Positions 8,985 through 15,410 of a stretch of DNA of 43,320 bases are shown here, piece after piece; position 1 is the first letter of the stretch; each line of letters opens with the position of its first letter. Origin of the DNA: Microthrixaceae bacterium. GTDB lineage: Bacteria; Actinomycetota; Acidimicrobiia; Acidimicrobiales; Microtrichaceae. The notes under the pieces are model-generated. The model saw only the letters and a list, made by a program, of their open reading frames with translations, did not search any database and was not told the origin of the DNA. Location: positions 1-43,320 of the forward strand of contig JAHRAZ010000033.1 in the NCBI GenBank assembly GCA_020027475.1, given 5' to 3'. The position numbers were made by a program, and so were the translations under genes.

Positions 8985-9884
8985 TCACCAGCCGCGATCG
9001 GCATAGGTCACTTTGGCCTCGTCCATTCCGATTCCGGTCATCGGTGTACCCAGTCCCCTGCTCACCTTTGCGAGAATCTGCGGATCTTCGAAATGCGTTG
9101 TGGCCTCCACGATTGCCTTTGCACGCGGAGCGGGATCATCGGACTTGAAGATTCCGGAACCCACGAAAACCGATTCGGCACCGAGCTGCATCGCCAGGGC
9201 GGCATCAGCGGGTGTGGCGAGTCCACCGGCGCAGAACAGCGGCACCGGCAACCGGCCCGTCTCGGCAACCTCCTGCACAAGCGGCAACGGCGCCTGAAGC
9301 CGCTTCGCCCATTCGAACAGTTCAGCGGAATCGGATTGACCGATGCGTCGAACGTCGCCGGTGATCGAACGAAGGTGCCGAACCGCTTCGATCACGTTTC
9401 CCGTACCTGCTTCACCCTTGGAGCGAATCATGCAAGCCCCCTCCGAAATGCGCCGGAGTGCTTCACCGAGGTTCGTGGCTCCGCATACGAACGGCACCGT
9501 GAAGGCCCACTTGTCGATGTGATGGGCCTCGTCCGCAGGGCTCAGAACCTCAGACTCGTCCACATAGTCCACACCCAGGGCTTCAAGGATCTGGGCTTCC
9601 ACGAAATGACCGATCCGGGCCTTGGCCATCACCGGAATGGTCACTTCGTCCTGAATCCCTTCGATCATGATCGGGTCGCTCATTCGGGCAACTCCGCCAT
9701 CGACGCGAATGTCGGCCGGAACTCGTTCGAGGGCCATCACCGCCACAGCACCGGCGTCCTCGGCGATTTTGGCCTGATCGGCTGTGACCACATCCATGAT
9801 CACACCCCCCTTGAGCATCTCTGCCAGACCACGTTTGACGAGTTGGGTACCGGTGGAGCGTGAGGCTTCGGACATGTCCGTCAT
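8985..9884 (-). CDS. pdxS: Pyridoxal 5'-phosphate synthase lyase subunit PdxS
   Basis: PdxS condenses ribose 5-phosphate, glyceraldehyde 3-phosphate and ammonia from PdxT into PLP. About 299 residues. Signatures are [39 protein letters not shown] (Schiff-base Lys), [13 protein letters not shown] (second Lys), and [17 protein letters not shown] use the ATG at 9884; a second ATG three codons later (9875) is equally possible and the longer frame to 9935 has no homology. It is the upstream gene of the pdxS-pdxT-yebC-ruvCAB string, and its promoter probably lies in 9885-9985. Confidence 0.95.
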
Positions 9885-9985
9885 TGTAAATGAACTGTTG
9901 ACGGCGACGGGTATCCCTTTGCCGGCCGGGACCATACCCCTTGCGCCCCCGGAGCGACCCCGCCGCTCGACGCCTTTGCCGGGGT

Positions 9986-11134
9986 TCAGGGATGCTCTGG
10001 CGCCGGAAGCGACGCAACCTGCTCGGCAGACAAGATGGTGGGCGGTTCGACCGCCAGCACCATCCAGGCCGTGCCCGGCTCGAGAGTCATCGGGTTTCCG
10101 TTCGGGTCACGGAGCTCCCACGGATCGGTTCGGCTGGGTCGACTCCAGGTTCCGGCCCCGGCACGCCCGTCGCTGAATACCCAGGCGTCACCAGATCCCA
10201 CAGTGATCGCCTCTGGGGAAGTTGCATCGGCTGAGGACTGGACGTACTCGGTCTCCACAACAATCACGTTGGTCGGCGCGATTTGATCGCCCTCCAGATC
10301 GAGTTCGGGCACACCGTGTGCCCAGCGGGACCAGGCGCGGCGCTCCTCGTCCCAGGCGAAGGTTGCTCCCGAACCCACCCGGGCGAAAAGGCCGGCCACC
10401 GGCAGCCCCGACGAGTGCGCACCCGCCTCGCGGTAGGGAAACACCGCAGTCGGGCGAACCACGGGGGATTGAGCCAGATCCCAGAGGCCATCCGCCTTGG
10501 CAAGCAGGTTGTGGGGGCGTTGTTTGCGGGGAGTCCGGAAGTACTCGCCGGGCGCAACGTCGAAGGACGCCAGTTGGAACCCACCCGCCTCATCGAGCGC
10601 CGCCTTCGTACCCTCGTTGTACCCGGAGATCACGAAGAGGGGCGTTCCGAATGCCGGAAGCAGATCGGCATCGGAGACCCGGGCTGACCGGATGGGACCG
10701 ATGTCATCGACGTCCTCGGAGTGGAAGATCGCCATGTATCGACTGATTCCTTCCACCTGAATCTCGATGACCAGATCCGCCCGCTCCAGTCCGACATATG
10801 GATTGGCCTCGGATGCGGCATCAACCTTGGCGATCAAGGCCGGCCGATCCAGGAGATGTCCCTTGTCGGTGGATACCGCCATACCGGTCAGCGGGGCGAT
10901 GCGGTCTCCCTCGTCGGGGACCGAGGTGGAAGTGGAGATCGCCTTGGTGCCCGTGTCGGAATTGTTCCGCCATGGACCCCACCAGGCGATCAGACCAACC
11001 AGAAGCGTCGCCACCGCTGCGACGACCGCAACAATTCGAGCCCCGCGAGCCGCGTGACCTTCCGTGTCATCCCCTGCATCATCACTGCGGCCACCGTCGC
11101 TGTCGGCGACAGACGCGTCGCCGGGATCGCTCAC
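9986..11134 (-). CDS. Membrane-anchored DUF3048 (YerB-like) protein
   Basis: A 382-residue protein with an acidic cytoplasmic N-terminus, one membrane helix near residues 33-50, and an extracellular region matching DUF3048. The family pattern is seen in APLTGM, the [12 protein letters not shown] region, [32 protein letters not shown], and a C-terminal half with [13 protein letters not shown]. Members such as Bacillus YerB are surface proteins of unknown biochemical role. The GTG start overlaps the stop of the upstream peptidase-like gene by 4 bp (GTGA), so the two products may act together at the membrane. Confidence 0.88.
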
Positions 11135-11922
11135 AGTTCGCTCAGAAGCGCCATCCTGTAGGAGACCGGCTGGATCGCAGTGTCGAGCAGCGGATCCCGA
11201 CCACTCGCCGACTCAACGGCGGGAGCCAGCCAAAGCGGAGCGGTTACCGGCTGTGCACCCTTCACGATCGTTCCGTTTTCGCCCATCCTTGCCAGCGTGG
11301 AGATCAGCGCCGGCGGATATCGCGTGATGGAAAGAGCCTCGAGGTCGGCTCGAGCCGAACGCTGGTCTCCAAGCATTGACGCCATCTGCGCTGCACTCGC
11401 CCCGGTGATCGACTTCAGCAATCCGGGAATGGCAGCGCAGATTGTCAGGTATTCGGCCGAGCCATCGCGCAACCGGCACAGGAGTTCCGCTGAAACCGAC
11501 TCCAGCTCAGCAGGACCCGACTCCTTGATCAGAGCCGAGGTCACCACCAGCGCCGATTGGTCGCCAGAGGATGTGGCGAGGGCATTCGCAGCGTCCGATG
11601 AGATGAGGCGCACATCCGGGAGTGACACTCCGGTCATCACGCCCACGCCCTCCACGGCGTTCACCAGCGCCTCCACGGTCGAACCGCCCTCCACAAAGGC
11701 GGAACTGCTGGAACCGACCATCCGGTCCACGGCTCCGCCAAACAGGCTTCGAGTCCAGAGGTACCAGGCACCGGCACCCACCACGAGCACCACAATCCCC
11801 ACCGCGAACCCCCACAGGAGCACGGCGACCAGACCCACGAACGCTGCCCCGACCAAGCCAACCACAAGCATGCGGGAGCGAACGGCACTGGTGGCCTCTG
11901 CGAAGTGATCCTGAGTGGGCAT
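11131..11922 (-). CDS. M48/HtpX-like membrane protein lacking all zinc ligands (pseudopeptidase)
   Basis: A 263-residue protein with two membrane helices (about residues 18-38 and 40-57), then a domain that aligns with HtpX-type M48 peptidases: ALVNAVEGVGVMTGVSLPDV, ANALATSSGDQSALVVTSAL, and a C-terminal PLLDTAIQPVSYRMALL in place of the usual THPP-ERI segment. Where M48 enzymes carry HExxH this protein has AELLC (about residues 145-149). The downstream E-A-D zinc motif reads R-A-D (191-193). It therefore cannot bind zinc in the usual way. I infer a scaffold or binding role, perhaps with the DUF3048 partner it overlaps. It lies 10 bp downstream of pimA. The fold assignment is by eye and should be checked. 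Confidence 0.65.
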   Translation of the reverse strand: MPTQDHFAEATSAVRSRMLVVGLVGAAFVGLVAVLLWGFAVGIVVLVVGAGAWYLWTRSLFGGAVDRMVGSSSSAFVEGGSTVEALVNAVEGVGVMTGVSLPDVRLISSDAANALATSSGDQSALVVTSALIKESGPAELESVSAELLCRLRDGSAEYLTICAAIPGLLKSITGASAAQMASMLGDQRSARADLEALSITRYPPALISTLARMGENGTIVKGAQPVTAPLWLAPAVESASGRDPLLDTAIQPVSYRMALLSEL

Positions 11923-11932
11923 CACCGAGAAG

Positions 11933-13078
11933 TTACTCCCCTGCGTCCGGATCTCGGGAATCTCGAGACGCAATGGCCCTTGCATACAACTCCAGATATC
12001 TGGCACACAGAGCGTCGAGATCGAACTGTCCGGCGCGTTCGAGGCCCGCAACAACCAATTCTTCGCGACGGACGGAATCGGACAGCACGGCATTGAGCGA
12101 AGCTGCCAGCGACGCCGGGTCATCCGGCCTCGCCAACTCGGCGCAGGGCCGTTGCGGCAACGCACCGTCGGGAGATGGACCCGTTGCGACGTTTTCGTAA
12201 CCGGGGATGGCGCTGGCCACCACGGCGGTACCCGCAGCCATGGCTTCCAGAAGAATGATGCCGAAGGATTCCCCACCCAGGGACGGGGCACAGAAAACCG
12301 TGGCGGTAGCCATCAGCCTGTCTCTTTCGTCATCTGTGACACGGCCGAGCCACTCGATTCGCGGGCTCGGATAACGGCGTTTCAGTTCTTCGGTGGATTC
12401 GCCTTCGCCCGCCACCAGGATCCGGGTCCCCACGCGGAGTTCGGGTTCTGCTCGCAACAGGATCTCCAGTCCCTTGCGGGGTTCGTGGCGGCCGAGGAAG
12501 AACACGGTCTGATCAGGCATCGAGGCTTCGTCTGCGGTGCGTTCACGATGCGCCCCTGGCGCGCCCGAGGCATCCACGCCGTTGAACAGCACGGTCCAGT
12601 CGCCGCCGATGTGGGGTTCTGCCATTGCGAGCGCATCTTCGGACACCGCCACGCGCTCATCAAAACGGCTCGCAATCCAACGCCCGAGCGGCGCCAGCAC
12701 GGAATAGGCCGGCTGGTGGCCTGCGGCGTGGAACGTTGCCACCAGCGGAGCGGGCTTTATCAGTGCTGCGGTGAGTGTCGGCCCGGGAACGAATGGCTCG
12801 TGAAGGTGGATCACGTCAAAGGATTCGTCCCACAGGGCACGCACGGTCCGGAACTGGGCAGAGGGATCGGGGGCCATGGGAGCAATGGAACCGTTGGAGG
12901 GATTCATGACACTGCTGCCAACCGGCGTCACGAATGTTGCCGGGGGTGGCCCATCACAAGGCGCCAGAACCCGCGCAGTGTGACCGCGCCGAGCCAAGGC
13001 CCGGGCCAGACCCATCACCTGATTCTGGACGCCACCGGGAACGGACAGGCTGTAGGGGCAGATAAGTCCCACACGCAT
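11933..13078 (-). CDS. pimA: Phosphatidylinositol mannosyltransferase PimA-like GT4 glycosyltransferase
   Basis: A 381-residue GT-B glycosyltransferase of family GT4. It opens with MRVGLICPYSLSVPGGVQNQV, matching PimA, which transfers mannose from GDP-mannose to the inositol ring of phosphatidylinositol on the inner face of the membrane. Other signatures are HLHEPFVPGP, FHAAG, FLGRHEPRKGLEILL, and the donor-binding ESFGIILLEAMAAGTAVVAS with the E-x7-E pattern. It follows patA and pgsA in one transcription unit (28-bp gap), the same order as in mycobacteria. That context makes PimA more likely than another GT4 enzyme such as MshA. Confidence 0.88.
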   Translation of the reverse strand: MRVGLICPYSLSVPGGVQNQVMGLARALARRGHTARVLAPCDGPPPATFVTPVGSSVMNPSNGSIAPMAPDPSAQFRTVRALWDESFDVIHLHEPFVPGPTLTAALIKPAPLVATFHAAGHQPAYSVLAPLGRWIASRFDERVAVSEDALAMAEPHIGGDWTVLFNGVDASGAPGAHRERTADEASMPDQTVFFLGRHEPRKGLEILLRAEPELRVGTRILVAGEGESTEELKRRYPSPRIEWLGRVTDDERDRLMATATVFCAPSLGGESFGIILLEAMAAGTAVVASAIPGYENVATGPSPDGALPQRPCAELARPDDPASLAASLNAVLSDSVRREELVVAGLERAGQFDLDALCARYLELYARAIASRDSRDPDAGE

Positions 13079-13106: not shown

Positions 13107-14000
13107 TCAGGCAGGGTCCAGCCCCAAAGCTTCATAATCGCTCGGCCAGTTGGGCTGGAGAAGGTGCCACTGATATGGATCCCGACGGATGAGAATCTCC
13201 AGCTCGCGAGCCAGATCCTGGGTGATCCGGGTGACGTCATCGCGCAATCGTCCTCGTCGCGTGGTGTCGAGCGGTTCACGCATGACCGCGCGGACTCCGC
13301 GACCCTCGATGTAGATCGCGCCGGCAATAAGTGGTGCTCCCGTGCGCAGCGCCATCAATGCCGGTCCACCCGGAAGCCTCGTCACCTCACCGAAGAACTC
13401 GACCTCTATTCCGGCTCCCGAAAGGTCCCGGTCGCACACGAGACAAACGAGGTCACCCCGCTTCAATGCCGCAGCAACATTGTTCCCGGCACCTCGATCG
13501 AGCGGAATCACGTTGACTCCCATGCTCTCGCGAAAATCACGAAACCATTCGGACAGCCCAGGGGAATCCAGGTCTTCGACCACGGCGGAGACACCGTGGC
13601 CACGGTCCGATAGCCAGCGGGTGGCCCACTCCCAACTACCCAGATGAGGTAGTCCGACGATGGGAGCGCCATCGCCCTCCAAGGCGTTGGAGATGTTCTC
13701 ATATCCCTCGATCTTGAACCTGCGAGTGATCGCTTCGTCACTCATGTCGGGGAGCCTGAAAACATCCAGCCAATACTGGGCATAGGAGTCGAACACCTTC
13801 TGGACATCCCGCTCGCGCAGAATTCTGTTCGGCTGGTCGCCTCGAACCCGGCTCAGATGTCGAGCGACAACGCGGCGCGATTCCGGCGAAGCTCGAGCAG
13901 CCGCGAAAGCCAAGCCACGAGCCATGCTTCGGGCCACCGGTTCGGGAGCACGCTTGACCACGGATGACGCGGCCTCCAGGCCGGACACCGTGAGATCCAT
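13107..14000 (-). CDS. patA: PIM acyltransferase (PatA-like, LpxL/HtrB superfamily)
   Basis: A 297-residue acyltransferase of the LpxL/HtrB superfamily. The catalytic H-x4-E-like motif is seen in LPHLGSWEWA (about residues 118-123). Also present are GVNVIPLDRG, LVCLVCDRDLSG, and a C-terminal PYQWHLLQPNW. In mycobacteria the enzyme at this locus acylates the mannose of phosphatidylinositol mannosides. It lies 11 bp downstream of pgsA and 28 bp upstream of pimA, which supports that role over lipid A acylation. The protein is probably a peripheral protein of the inner membrane leaflet. Confidence 0.88.
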   Translation of the reverse strand: MDLTVSGLEAASSVVKRAPEPVARSMARGLAFAAARASPESRRVVARHLSRVRGDQPNRILRERDVQKVFDSYAQYWLDVFRLPDMSDEAITRRFKIEGYENISNALEGDGAPIVGLPHLGSWEWATRWLSDRGHGVSAVVEDLDSPGLSEWFRDFRESMGVNVIPLDRGAGNNVAAALKRGDLVCLVCDRDLSGAGIEVEFFGEVTRLPGGPALMALRTGAPLIAGAIYIEGRGVRAVMREPLDTTRRGRLRDDVTRITQDLARELEILIRRDPYQWHLLQPNWPSDYEALGLDPA

Positions 14001-14011
14001 CAGGGGATCAG

Positions 14012-14740
14012 TCAGTTCACAGGCTTGGAGCGAGAATTGCGCGAAGCTCCCTCGGCCCTGCGACGAGCACGCAGCTTTGAGCGACGCTCAGCAGAGGAAC
14101 TACCCGTGCGTGCCGAGCGACGCCTCTTCGGCTGACGCTGGAGTTCCGGTGCTTCGTCGGTCGCCTGCCTCCAGACAACGACAAAACGTTGACCAGCCGT
14201 GATCAGGTTCAGAACCACGATCGACCCGAGTATCCAGACCAGCACGGACCCACCGAACAGCAGGCCAATGCCCAGAAGTATCAGTCGTTCGGCGCGCTCG
14301 ACCATTCCCACATGTGCGTCGTAACCGAGCGCATCCGCCTTTGCACGAATGTAGGAAACCACTGATGCGGTCAGGTAGGCGAGCATCGGAAGAGTGACCA
14401 TCCAGGCAGGTTCTCCGGTGTTGGCGTAGTAGTACACAACTCCCGTGAACAGGATGCCGTCTGTGAATCGATCGGACACCGAGTCGAAGAATGCGCCTCG
14501 GCGACTGGAGCGGCCGGTGGCCTTTGCCACGGCGCCATCGAGAAGATCCGGCACGGCTGCCAGAACCATCAGCAACAGTCCCAGGTTCAGCGCGCCCATT
14601 CCAATGGCCACAGCCGCGCCCACCGACATGATCACGCCAGAAGCGGTGATCATGTCTGCAGTGATTCCCACCTTCGCAACGCCACGCCCGATGGGCTTCA
14701 TGGCGGCATCCACCTGGCTGCGCCAGCGGTCGTCAAACAT
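14012..14740 (-). CDS. pgsA: CDP-alcohol phosphatidyltransferase, probable phosphatidylinositol-phosphate synthase
   Basis: A 242-residue multi-pass membrane protein with the CDP-alcohol phosphotransferase signature in PDLLDGAVAKATGRSSRRG followed by FFDSVSDR. The DG, G and two D positions of the motif are kept, while the common AR is AK. By neighbours (HIT protein and thrS upstream, patA and pimA downstream) it should be the PgsA1-type enzyme that makes phosphatidylinositol phosphate from CDP-diacylglycerol and inositol phosphate. The last 45 residues are Arg/Lys/Ser-rich and cytoplasmic, unusual in the core family. The start is supported by GAGGAG eight bases upstream. Confidence 0.88.
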   Translation of the reverse strand: MFDDRWRSQVDAAMKPIGRGVAKVGITADMITASGVIMSVGAAVAIGMGALNLGLLLMVLAAVPDLLDGAVAKATGRSSRRGAFFDSVSDRFTDGILFTGVVYYYANTGEPAWMVTLPMLAYLTASVVSYIRAKADALGYDAHVGMVERAERLILLGIGLLFGGSVLVWILGSIVVLNLITAGQRFVVVWRQATDEAPELQRQPKRRRSARTGSSSAERRSKLRARRRAEGASRNSRSKPVN

Positions 14741-14867: not shown

Positions 14868-15410
14868 TCACTCAGAAACAGTCTCGGTTCCCGAAGCTGG
14901 GGCCGCGTCCTCGAGGTCACCCCAGTCCTCTGGATTCTCCTCGACGAACCATTCAATGACGTCACCCGACACACCGTCGAGAAGCACGATTCCCCTGCGG
15001 TTTGGGGGATTCTCCGCCGAGTAGAGCAGGATTCGCCAGCTGGGTCTCGACAACCAGCCCCGCCAGACCATCTGTGCGGATGCGTGACCCACGGCGAAAC
15101 CCACCTGCCTGGATGCCGTCACCAATGCCTCTGTCTCGTCGACATTCAAGGTCCAGCCCGCAACCATGCCGTAGATGCCGAACGCCGTGAGACCCAGGCC
15201 GGCGGCCAGGATGCCACCGTTGACCAGGGCCGAGGTGTCGGAGTAAACGAGCCAGAACCCGATGCACACCAGACCGATGACGATGTAGATGGCCGCGGGA
15301 ACCCGGCGCCGATTGTTGTTCGGAAAGGTGTGGGGGCCGACGTACTCAGAGACGTTCAAGTCCTCGGGGAGCTCATCAACGTACTCGCCGTCTGTCGAAT
15401 CTTCGCTCAC
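14868..15410 (-). CDS. Conserved-looking two-helix membrane protein, function unknown
   Basis: I do not recognise a named family. The 180-residue protein has an acidic N-terminus (about 35 residues), two membrane helices (about 38-57 and 63-85), a globular part with ASRQVGFAVGHASAQMVWRG and RPSWRILLYSAE, and an acidic C-terminus. It starts at GTG. It is inserted between the HIT gene and pgsA, where mycobacteria have no such gene. The 127-bp gap downstream toward pgsA suggests pgsA may also have its own promoter. A role in lipid metabolism is possible from context only. Confidence 0.75.
   Translation of the reverse strand: MSEDSTDGEYVDELPEDLNVSEYVGPHTFPNNNRRRVPAAIYIVIGLVCIGFWLVYSDTSALVNGGILAAGLGLTAFGIYGMVAGWTLNVDETEALVTASRQVGFAVGHASAQMVWRGWLSRPSWRILLYSAENPPNRRGIVLLDGVSGDVIEWFVEENPEDWGDLEDAAPASGTETVSE

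Follow-up and report, generated by a model that had tools for sequence, protein, structure and literature searches.

Membrane pseudoproteases are best known from the rhomboids of eukaryotes, and the gene of the M48 protease HtpX commonly occurs in other genomes as a pair with lemA. The adjacent tags SPD_1138 and SPD_1139 stand for HtpX and LemA in PMC8546594, and the HtpX domain is placed in the cytosol in PMC9263693. For YqgP, a bacterial membrane protease, PMC7231995 describes a role as FtsH adaptor that is independent of its own activity. In the PMC literature searched, we found no description of an inactive HtpX/M48 homologue, whether from actinobacteria or elsewhere. Here we analyze an M48-like gene in the window (the whole stretch of DNA that was analyzed, 43,320 nucleotides from a Microthrixaceae bacterium) together with its relatives. 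What is new is the occurrence of intact, intermediate, and zinc-less forms of HtpX at one locus adjoining pimA.

The gene and its neighbors

The minus strand of 11922..11131 is one open frame of 263 amino acids that fills the whole interval named by an earlier sequence-only reading; read on the plus strand, 11131-11922 is interrupted by stops. An antisense frame of 242 amino acids (11180-11908, plus strand) overlaps the gene and is probably a high-GC artefact. Downstream, the gene shares the 4-bp stop/start overlap GTGA (11131..11134, minus strand), already noticed in that reading, with a gene for a DUF3048 protein of 382 amino acids (9986..11134, minus strand; Pfam PF11258 and PF17479). Beyond it lies a putative pdxS-like gene (8985..9935, minus strand), which in relatives anchors the locus on its downstream side.

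Upstream, across a 10-bp gap, is a pimA-like GT4 glycosyltransferase gene (11933..13078, minus strand), named from its position and its GT4 Pfam matches. It is followed by a phosphatidylinositol mannoside acyltransferase (patA-like; 13107..14000, minus strand; above the NCBIfam cut-off) and a CDP-alcohol phosphatidyltransferase resembling PIP synthase (pgsA; 14012..14740, minus strand; Pfam and NCBIfam). The pgsA, patA, pimA, and M48-like genes are packed closely on one strand, with 10-28 bp between neighbors. The place of the gene next to pimA is thus as first read, and it is very stable among relatives; the link to envelope lipids that had been drawn from it is one of position. Between the HIT gene and pgsA, window positions 14868-15410 (minus strand) encode a membrane protein of 180 amino acids without a Pfam match, whose place is kept in many Acidimicrobiia loci.

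Descent from an M48 protease

No Pfam family matches the window protein, and PF01435 is matched by two of 17 close relatives. Seven HtpX models of NCBIfam match the protein, all far under their curated cut-offs, the best being NF003425 (E 2.1e-14; 53 bits against a cut-off of 355). When the 17-row family was aligned by hhalign with the classical HtpX of the same genome, the match (97%, E 2.5e-11, 185 columns) covered residues 74-261. An AlphaFold model built on the 17-row alignment (pLDDT 88.7, pTM 0.87) has two long hydrophobic N-terminal helices (residues 3-37 and 39-62), with a further helix at the C terminus (253-262). Its best PDB rows in Foldseek are M48 proteases, with a modest E of 4.5e-3. 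In a second structure comparison, all 20 of the best entries are metallopeptidases, among them Ste24p and BepA (Z 11.6 each) and the HtpX domain 3cqb (Z 9.6; 96 residues superposed at rmsd 2.3). Unrelated entries begin at Z 6.7. Together, the NCBIfam, hhalign, AlphaFold, and two structure-comparison results support M48 descent well. The HtpX/M48 layout that the sequence-only reading had recognized, with two membrane helices, NAVEG, NALAT, and a terminal helix, is present in all its parts, and its assignment to M48 holds at the level of both profile and fold.

Loss of the zinc site

The zinc site of this protein is gone. The whole 263-residue sequence contains no HExxH and has a single His, at residue 6. 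In the phmmer alignment to HtpX 3cqb, as in the family alignment, the HExxH column is E146-L147-L148-C149-R150, so that the motif reads ELLCR (residues 146-150; 11473..11487, minus strand; here and below, motif coordinates were converted manually from residue positions, with 11922 as the start). The loss of HExxH had been seen correctly; its reading as AELLC is one residue off, and because HExxH aligns one residue later, the Glu in AELLC does not correspond to the catalytic one. The third ligand, the Glu of ExxAD, is Ser189 and not Arg as had been claimed; it lies in SARAD (residues 189-193; 11344..11358, minus strand), in which Asp193 is kept. Every metal ligand is therefore lost from an intact frame, as that reading had maintained. 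Compared with HtpX and long relatives, the protein also lacks THPP and the TM3-4 hairpin that separates one ligand motif from the other.

R150, G154, A156, G185, Q187, and D193 are invariant in the 22-member clade that contains the window protein, and each of them, with the exception of D193, departs from the residue most often found at its position in long intact copies. Since R150, G154, A156, G185, and Q187 are newly invariant at or next to the former ligand motifs, the dead site is conserved anew. A second set of residues is kept in dead and live forms alike: N113, T128, E141, D193, RYPP, W231, and R256.

Three forms of HtpX at one locus

In many related genomes, the pimA-lemA-htpX-DUF3048-pdxS locus holds an intact HtpX. 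We compared 162 distinct related proteins, drawn from named contigs (the best 80 of 406 relatives), loci collected earlier, and 60 same-order regions, with seven duplicates between collections removed. Known non-locus M48 copies were set aside before counting, five of them among the 60 regions (L184, L195, L197, L219, and L220); L136-L164, L001, L055, L081, L114, L123, L051, and L054 were also left out of the count. Of the 162 that remained, 161 have a locus anchor, either pimA upstream or DUF3048, pdxS, or yebC downstream. Two of the copies set aside, L114 and L123, are on contigs titled Candidatus Micrarchaeota and are HtpX with TRYPPGL outside a pimA locus. Four other contigs (L063, L076, L097, and L101) are titled Bifidobacterium breve and carry a locus of the Acidimicrobiia type; these titles are probably wrong.

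The proteins fall into three forms. Seventy-three are intact and long, having the zinc site and a spacer of 60-82 residues between the positions of the second His and the third ligand, the region in which HtpX carries its second hydrophobic hairpin (L192, from G181, is long by alignment). Seventeen are intact and short, keeping the zinc site with a spacer of 30-40 residues and no hairpin. The other 72 lack at least one residue of the zinc site, and every one has a short spacer (26-56 residues) and no TM3-4 hairpin; no zinc-less protein with a long spacer was found among the 162. The presence of lemA upstream follows the same division: 65 of the 66 intact-long loci with pimA in view have it, against three of 12 intact-short and five of 65 zinc-less loci. 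Here the lemA frame is the one between pimA and the M48 gene, that of L085 being assigned by eye and backed by a Pfam LemA match in G296. The window locus has no lemA, and the only LemA match of its genome is on contig C106.

In one genome, G345, three genes stand in tandem before pdxS (L227, 1-2400, plus strand): lemA, an intact HtpX of the long form, and an intact M48 gene of the short form; the short form may therefore stem from a tandem duplicate rather than from a deletion in the original copy. Short proteins of this kind are also found in another Actinomycetota group (f56; L233-L241), in which all nine that were fetched lack the full zinc set and mostly read HCRGD. Seven of these nine have a pimA-like gene upstream in the same orientation, evidence that is weaker than in the main set because the gene was called from BLAST to a common glycosyltransferase fold.

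Within the family of the window genome, 30 of 33 genomes have a match to the M48-like gene, and zinc residues are missing in 29 of these 30 (one of them, L051, was assigned solely from the HExxH position, its contig ending before the third ligand). The exception, G296, has lemA next to an M48 gene at this locus that still encodes HELSH, ESLAD, and THPP. The sequence-only reading had counted same-locus homologues with HExxH as a refutation, and taken literally such homologues exist, in G296 and in many related genomes. We take an intact HtpX at the same locus in relatives to indicate descent from an active protease and not to refute pseudoprotease status, which stands for the window copy. That reading had also raised the matter of an active HtpX elsewhere, and an active-looking copy, judged by its motifs HELAH, EYEAD, and THPP, is present in the same genome (L001, G000:C134), the pseudoprotease being on contig C132. 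Across the family, a second M48 protein is matched by PF01435 in 29 of 33 genomes, and HExxH with an ExxAD-like motif is readable in 27 of the 29 second-M48 loci fetched.

Probable repeated loss of the zinc site

The zinc site was probably lost more than once. For the tree, the alignment was freed of 18 named loci (same-species near-duplicates and truncated or partial copies), of rows under 200 amino acids, and of identical rows; dropping rows at ≥75% identity then reduced it from 132 to 85 rows, with the window and L032 both kept. On this 85-row tree, the zinc label changes at least four times, while supported branches alone force one change; a 73-row tree gives seven changes for zinc loss and two for hairpin loss, all of these counts being soft because zinc-less rows have long branches. 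A single origin, with all zinc-less rows held together, is rejected (P = 0.0068, AU test), a result to which the caveat of long branches also applies.

Apart from any tree, the residues themselves point to a complete ancestral site. Zinc-less proteins retain the first His in L009, L010, and L015, the catalytic Glu in L104 and L118, the second His in L013, L222, and L223, and the third-ligand Glu in L008, L012, L052, L053, and L185. Every one of the four is thus still present in at least one zinc-less protein, and the simplest common ancestor is one with the full set. The order of events would be that the hairpin, and usually lemA, was lost first and the zinc site later, probably in several lineages.

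Selection and a possible role without cutting

Between the window and the same-genus locus L056, dN/dS is 0.23 for the M48-like gene, compared with 0.135 for pimA, 0.16 for patA, 0.09 for pgsA, 0.30 for HIT, and 0.315 for DUF3048. Ten pairs from genus g152 give values of 0.08-0.13, of which those with L037 (four pairs, dS >1.3) are unsure. At 0.08-0.23, the gene is selected like its neighbors and is not decaying. Its maintenance by selection after loss of the zinc site suggests a job that does not require cutting. The non-enzymatic role put forward in the sequence-only reading is reasonable in light of the zinc loss shared by 29 of the 30 same-family matches, the intact HtpX elsewhere in the genome, and purifying selection.

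We regard the protein as very probably a membrane pseudoprotease of M48 descent. Its ancestor would be an HtpX-type M48 protease of a pimA-lemA-htpX-(DUF3048)-pdxS locus. The M48-fold domain would be cytosolic, as in HtpX, and held to the membrane by TM1-2, where it may still bind a polypeptide or membrane-protein client of the kind bound by HtpX, leaving it uncut. Binding of client or partner would use the parts of the scaffold common to dead and live forms (those running from N113 to R256 above). As an adaptor, the protein could present clients to a real protease, either the other HtpX copy or FtsH; as a regulator, it could shield or tune the PI/PIM enzymes encoded in the same cluster. The non-catalytic adaptor role on its own, the likeliest of the functions considered here, is something we put forward tentatively, as a serious possibility. 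The statement as a whole, that a membrane pseudoprotease derived from the locus HtpX acts as a non-catalytic, client-binding adaptor or regulator, seems to us somewhat probable.

Another proposal is that the protein is an inactive partner of the classical HtpX whose gene lies elsewhere in the genome, joining it in a hetero-oligomer and modulating its activity. The window genome has such an HtpX, and among the 73 genomes with an assigned locus copy (out of 80 surveyed of 89 same-order genomes; G055, G102, G130, G141, G165, G265, G279, G287, and G293 were left out), another HtpX-like protein of at least 100 bits occurs in 35 of 36 with a zinc-less locus and in 27 of 37 with an intact one (P = 0.0066, Fisher's test). 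The difference is larger when genomes are divided by the hairpin (44 of 45 hairpin-less, 18 of 28 hairpin-bearing; P = 0.00017, Fisher's test). However, the rows of these tests are related genomes, and an independent-pairs test had almost no informative pairs; in addition, the zinc-less G217 has no other match of at least 100 bits, and in the window genome the two genes are on different contigs. We consider this proposal unlikely. Compensation for the lost activity by the second HtpX is not claimed, the association being a raw one and the phylogenetic pairs test uninformative.

The protein might instead serve specifically to regulate or scaffold the PI/PIM enzymes PgsA, PatA, and PimA. The close same-strand packing of these genes and the retention of the locus in 161 of 162 proteins fit such a role, but the adjacency may simply be inherited from the lemA-htpX ancestor, and we think the role improbable.

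A new chemistry built on the newly fixed residues R150, D153, and Q187 is far less credible. The 22-member clade shows little or no variation at these residues, but other zinc-less lineages lack the full set, the window protein has its single His near the N terminus, and we know of no catalytic arrangement of the R150/D153/Q187 type.

The sequence-only reading had named the DUF3048 protein as the likely partner, on the strength of the 4-bp overlap, and DUF3048 is indeed downstream in many loci. Of the 30 same-family genomes with the M48 gene, however, 11 lack DUF3048, and in these pdxS follows the pseudoprotease whenever the downstream flank is in view. In G256, DUF3048 is on another contig than the M48 gene, and among relatives it also adjoins intact HtpX copies. 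We therefore reject DUF3048 as an obligate partner, and a pairing of the two proteins is very doubtful. Least credible is a decaying gene, since the losses of zinc site, hairpin, and lemA are set against intact frames, newly invariant residues, retention in 30 of 33 family genomes, and dN/dS values (0.08-0.23) that speak against it.

Comparison with known systems

Protease, two-TM intermediates, and dead descendants occupy one syntenic position, so that the order of events is directly testable. The same series also allows selection after catalysis to be tested, that is, what stays selected once cutting is lost. It points to TRYPPGL, the conserved Trp, Asp193, and Arg256 as elements whose importance to the M48 scaffold does not depend on catalysis.

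The closest relative in this comparison is the locus HtpX/M48 protein of Acidimicrobiia (PF01435; lemA and pimA as neighbors). It shares with the window protein the fold, TM1-2, the N(A) strand motif, TRYPPGL, the Asp of ExxAD, the conserved Trp, the terminal Arg, and the locus itself; in contrast to it, the window protein lacks HExxH, the third-ligand Glu, the TM3-4 hairpin, and THPP, and zinc-less copies usually lack lemA. The classical HtpX of the same genome is homologous over the M48 domain (residues 74-261) and, unlike the window protein, has kept all three of its motifs.

Farther away are the rhomboid pseudoproteases iRhom and Derlin, and with them the FtsH adaptor YqgP, which likewise put a membrane protease scaffold to non-catalytic use on clients. 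They differ in having the serine-protease fold of rhomboids and a function that was tested, whereas here the scaffold is M48 and the function is one that we infer. It is conceivable, though we would not call it probable, that HtpX has repeatedly been turned into a non-cutting membrane adaptor at a fixed position next to the PI-mannoside genes, in two or more separate groups of Actinomycetota and always in a hairpin-less form, which would make these proteins a bacterial M48 counterpart of iRhom and Derlin.
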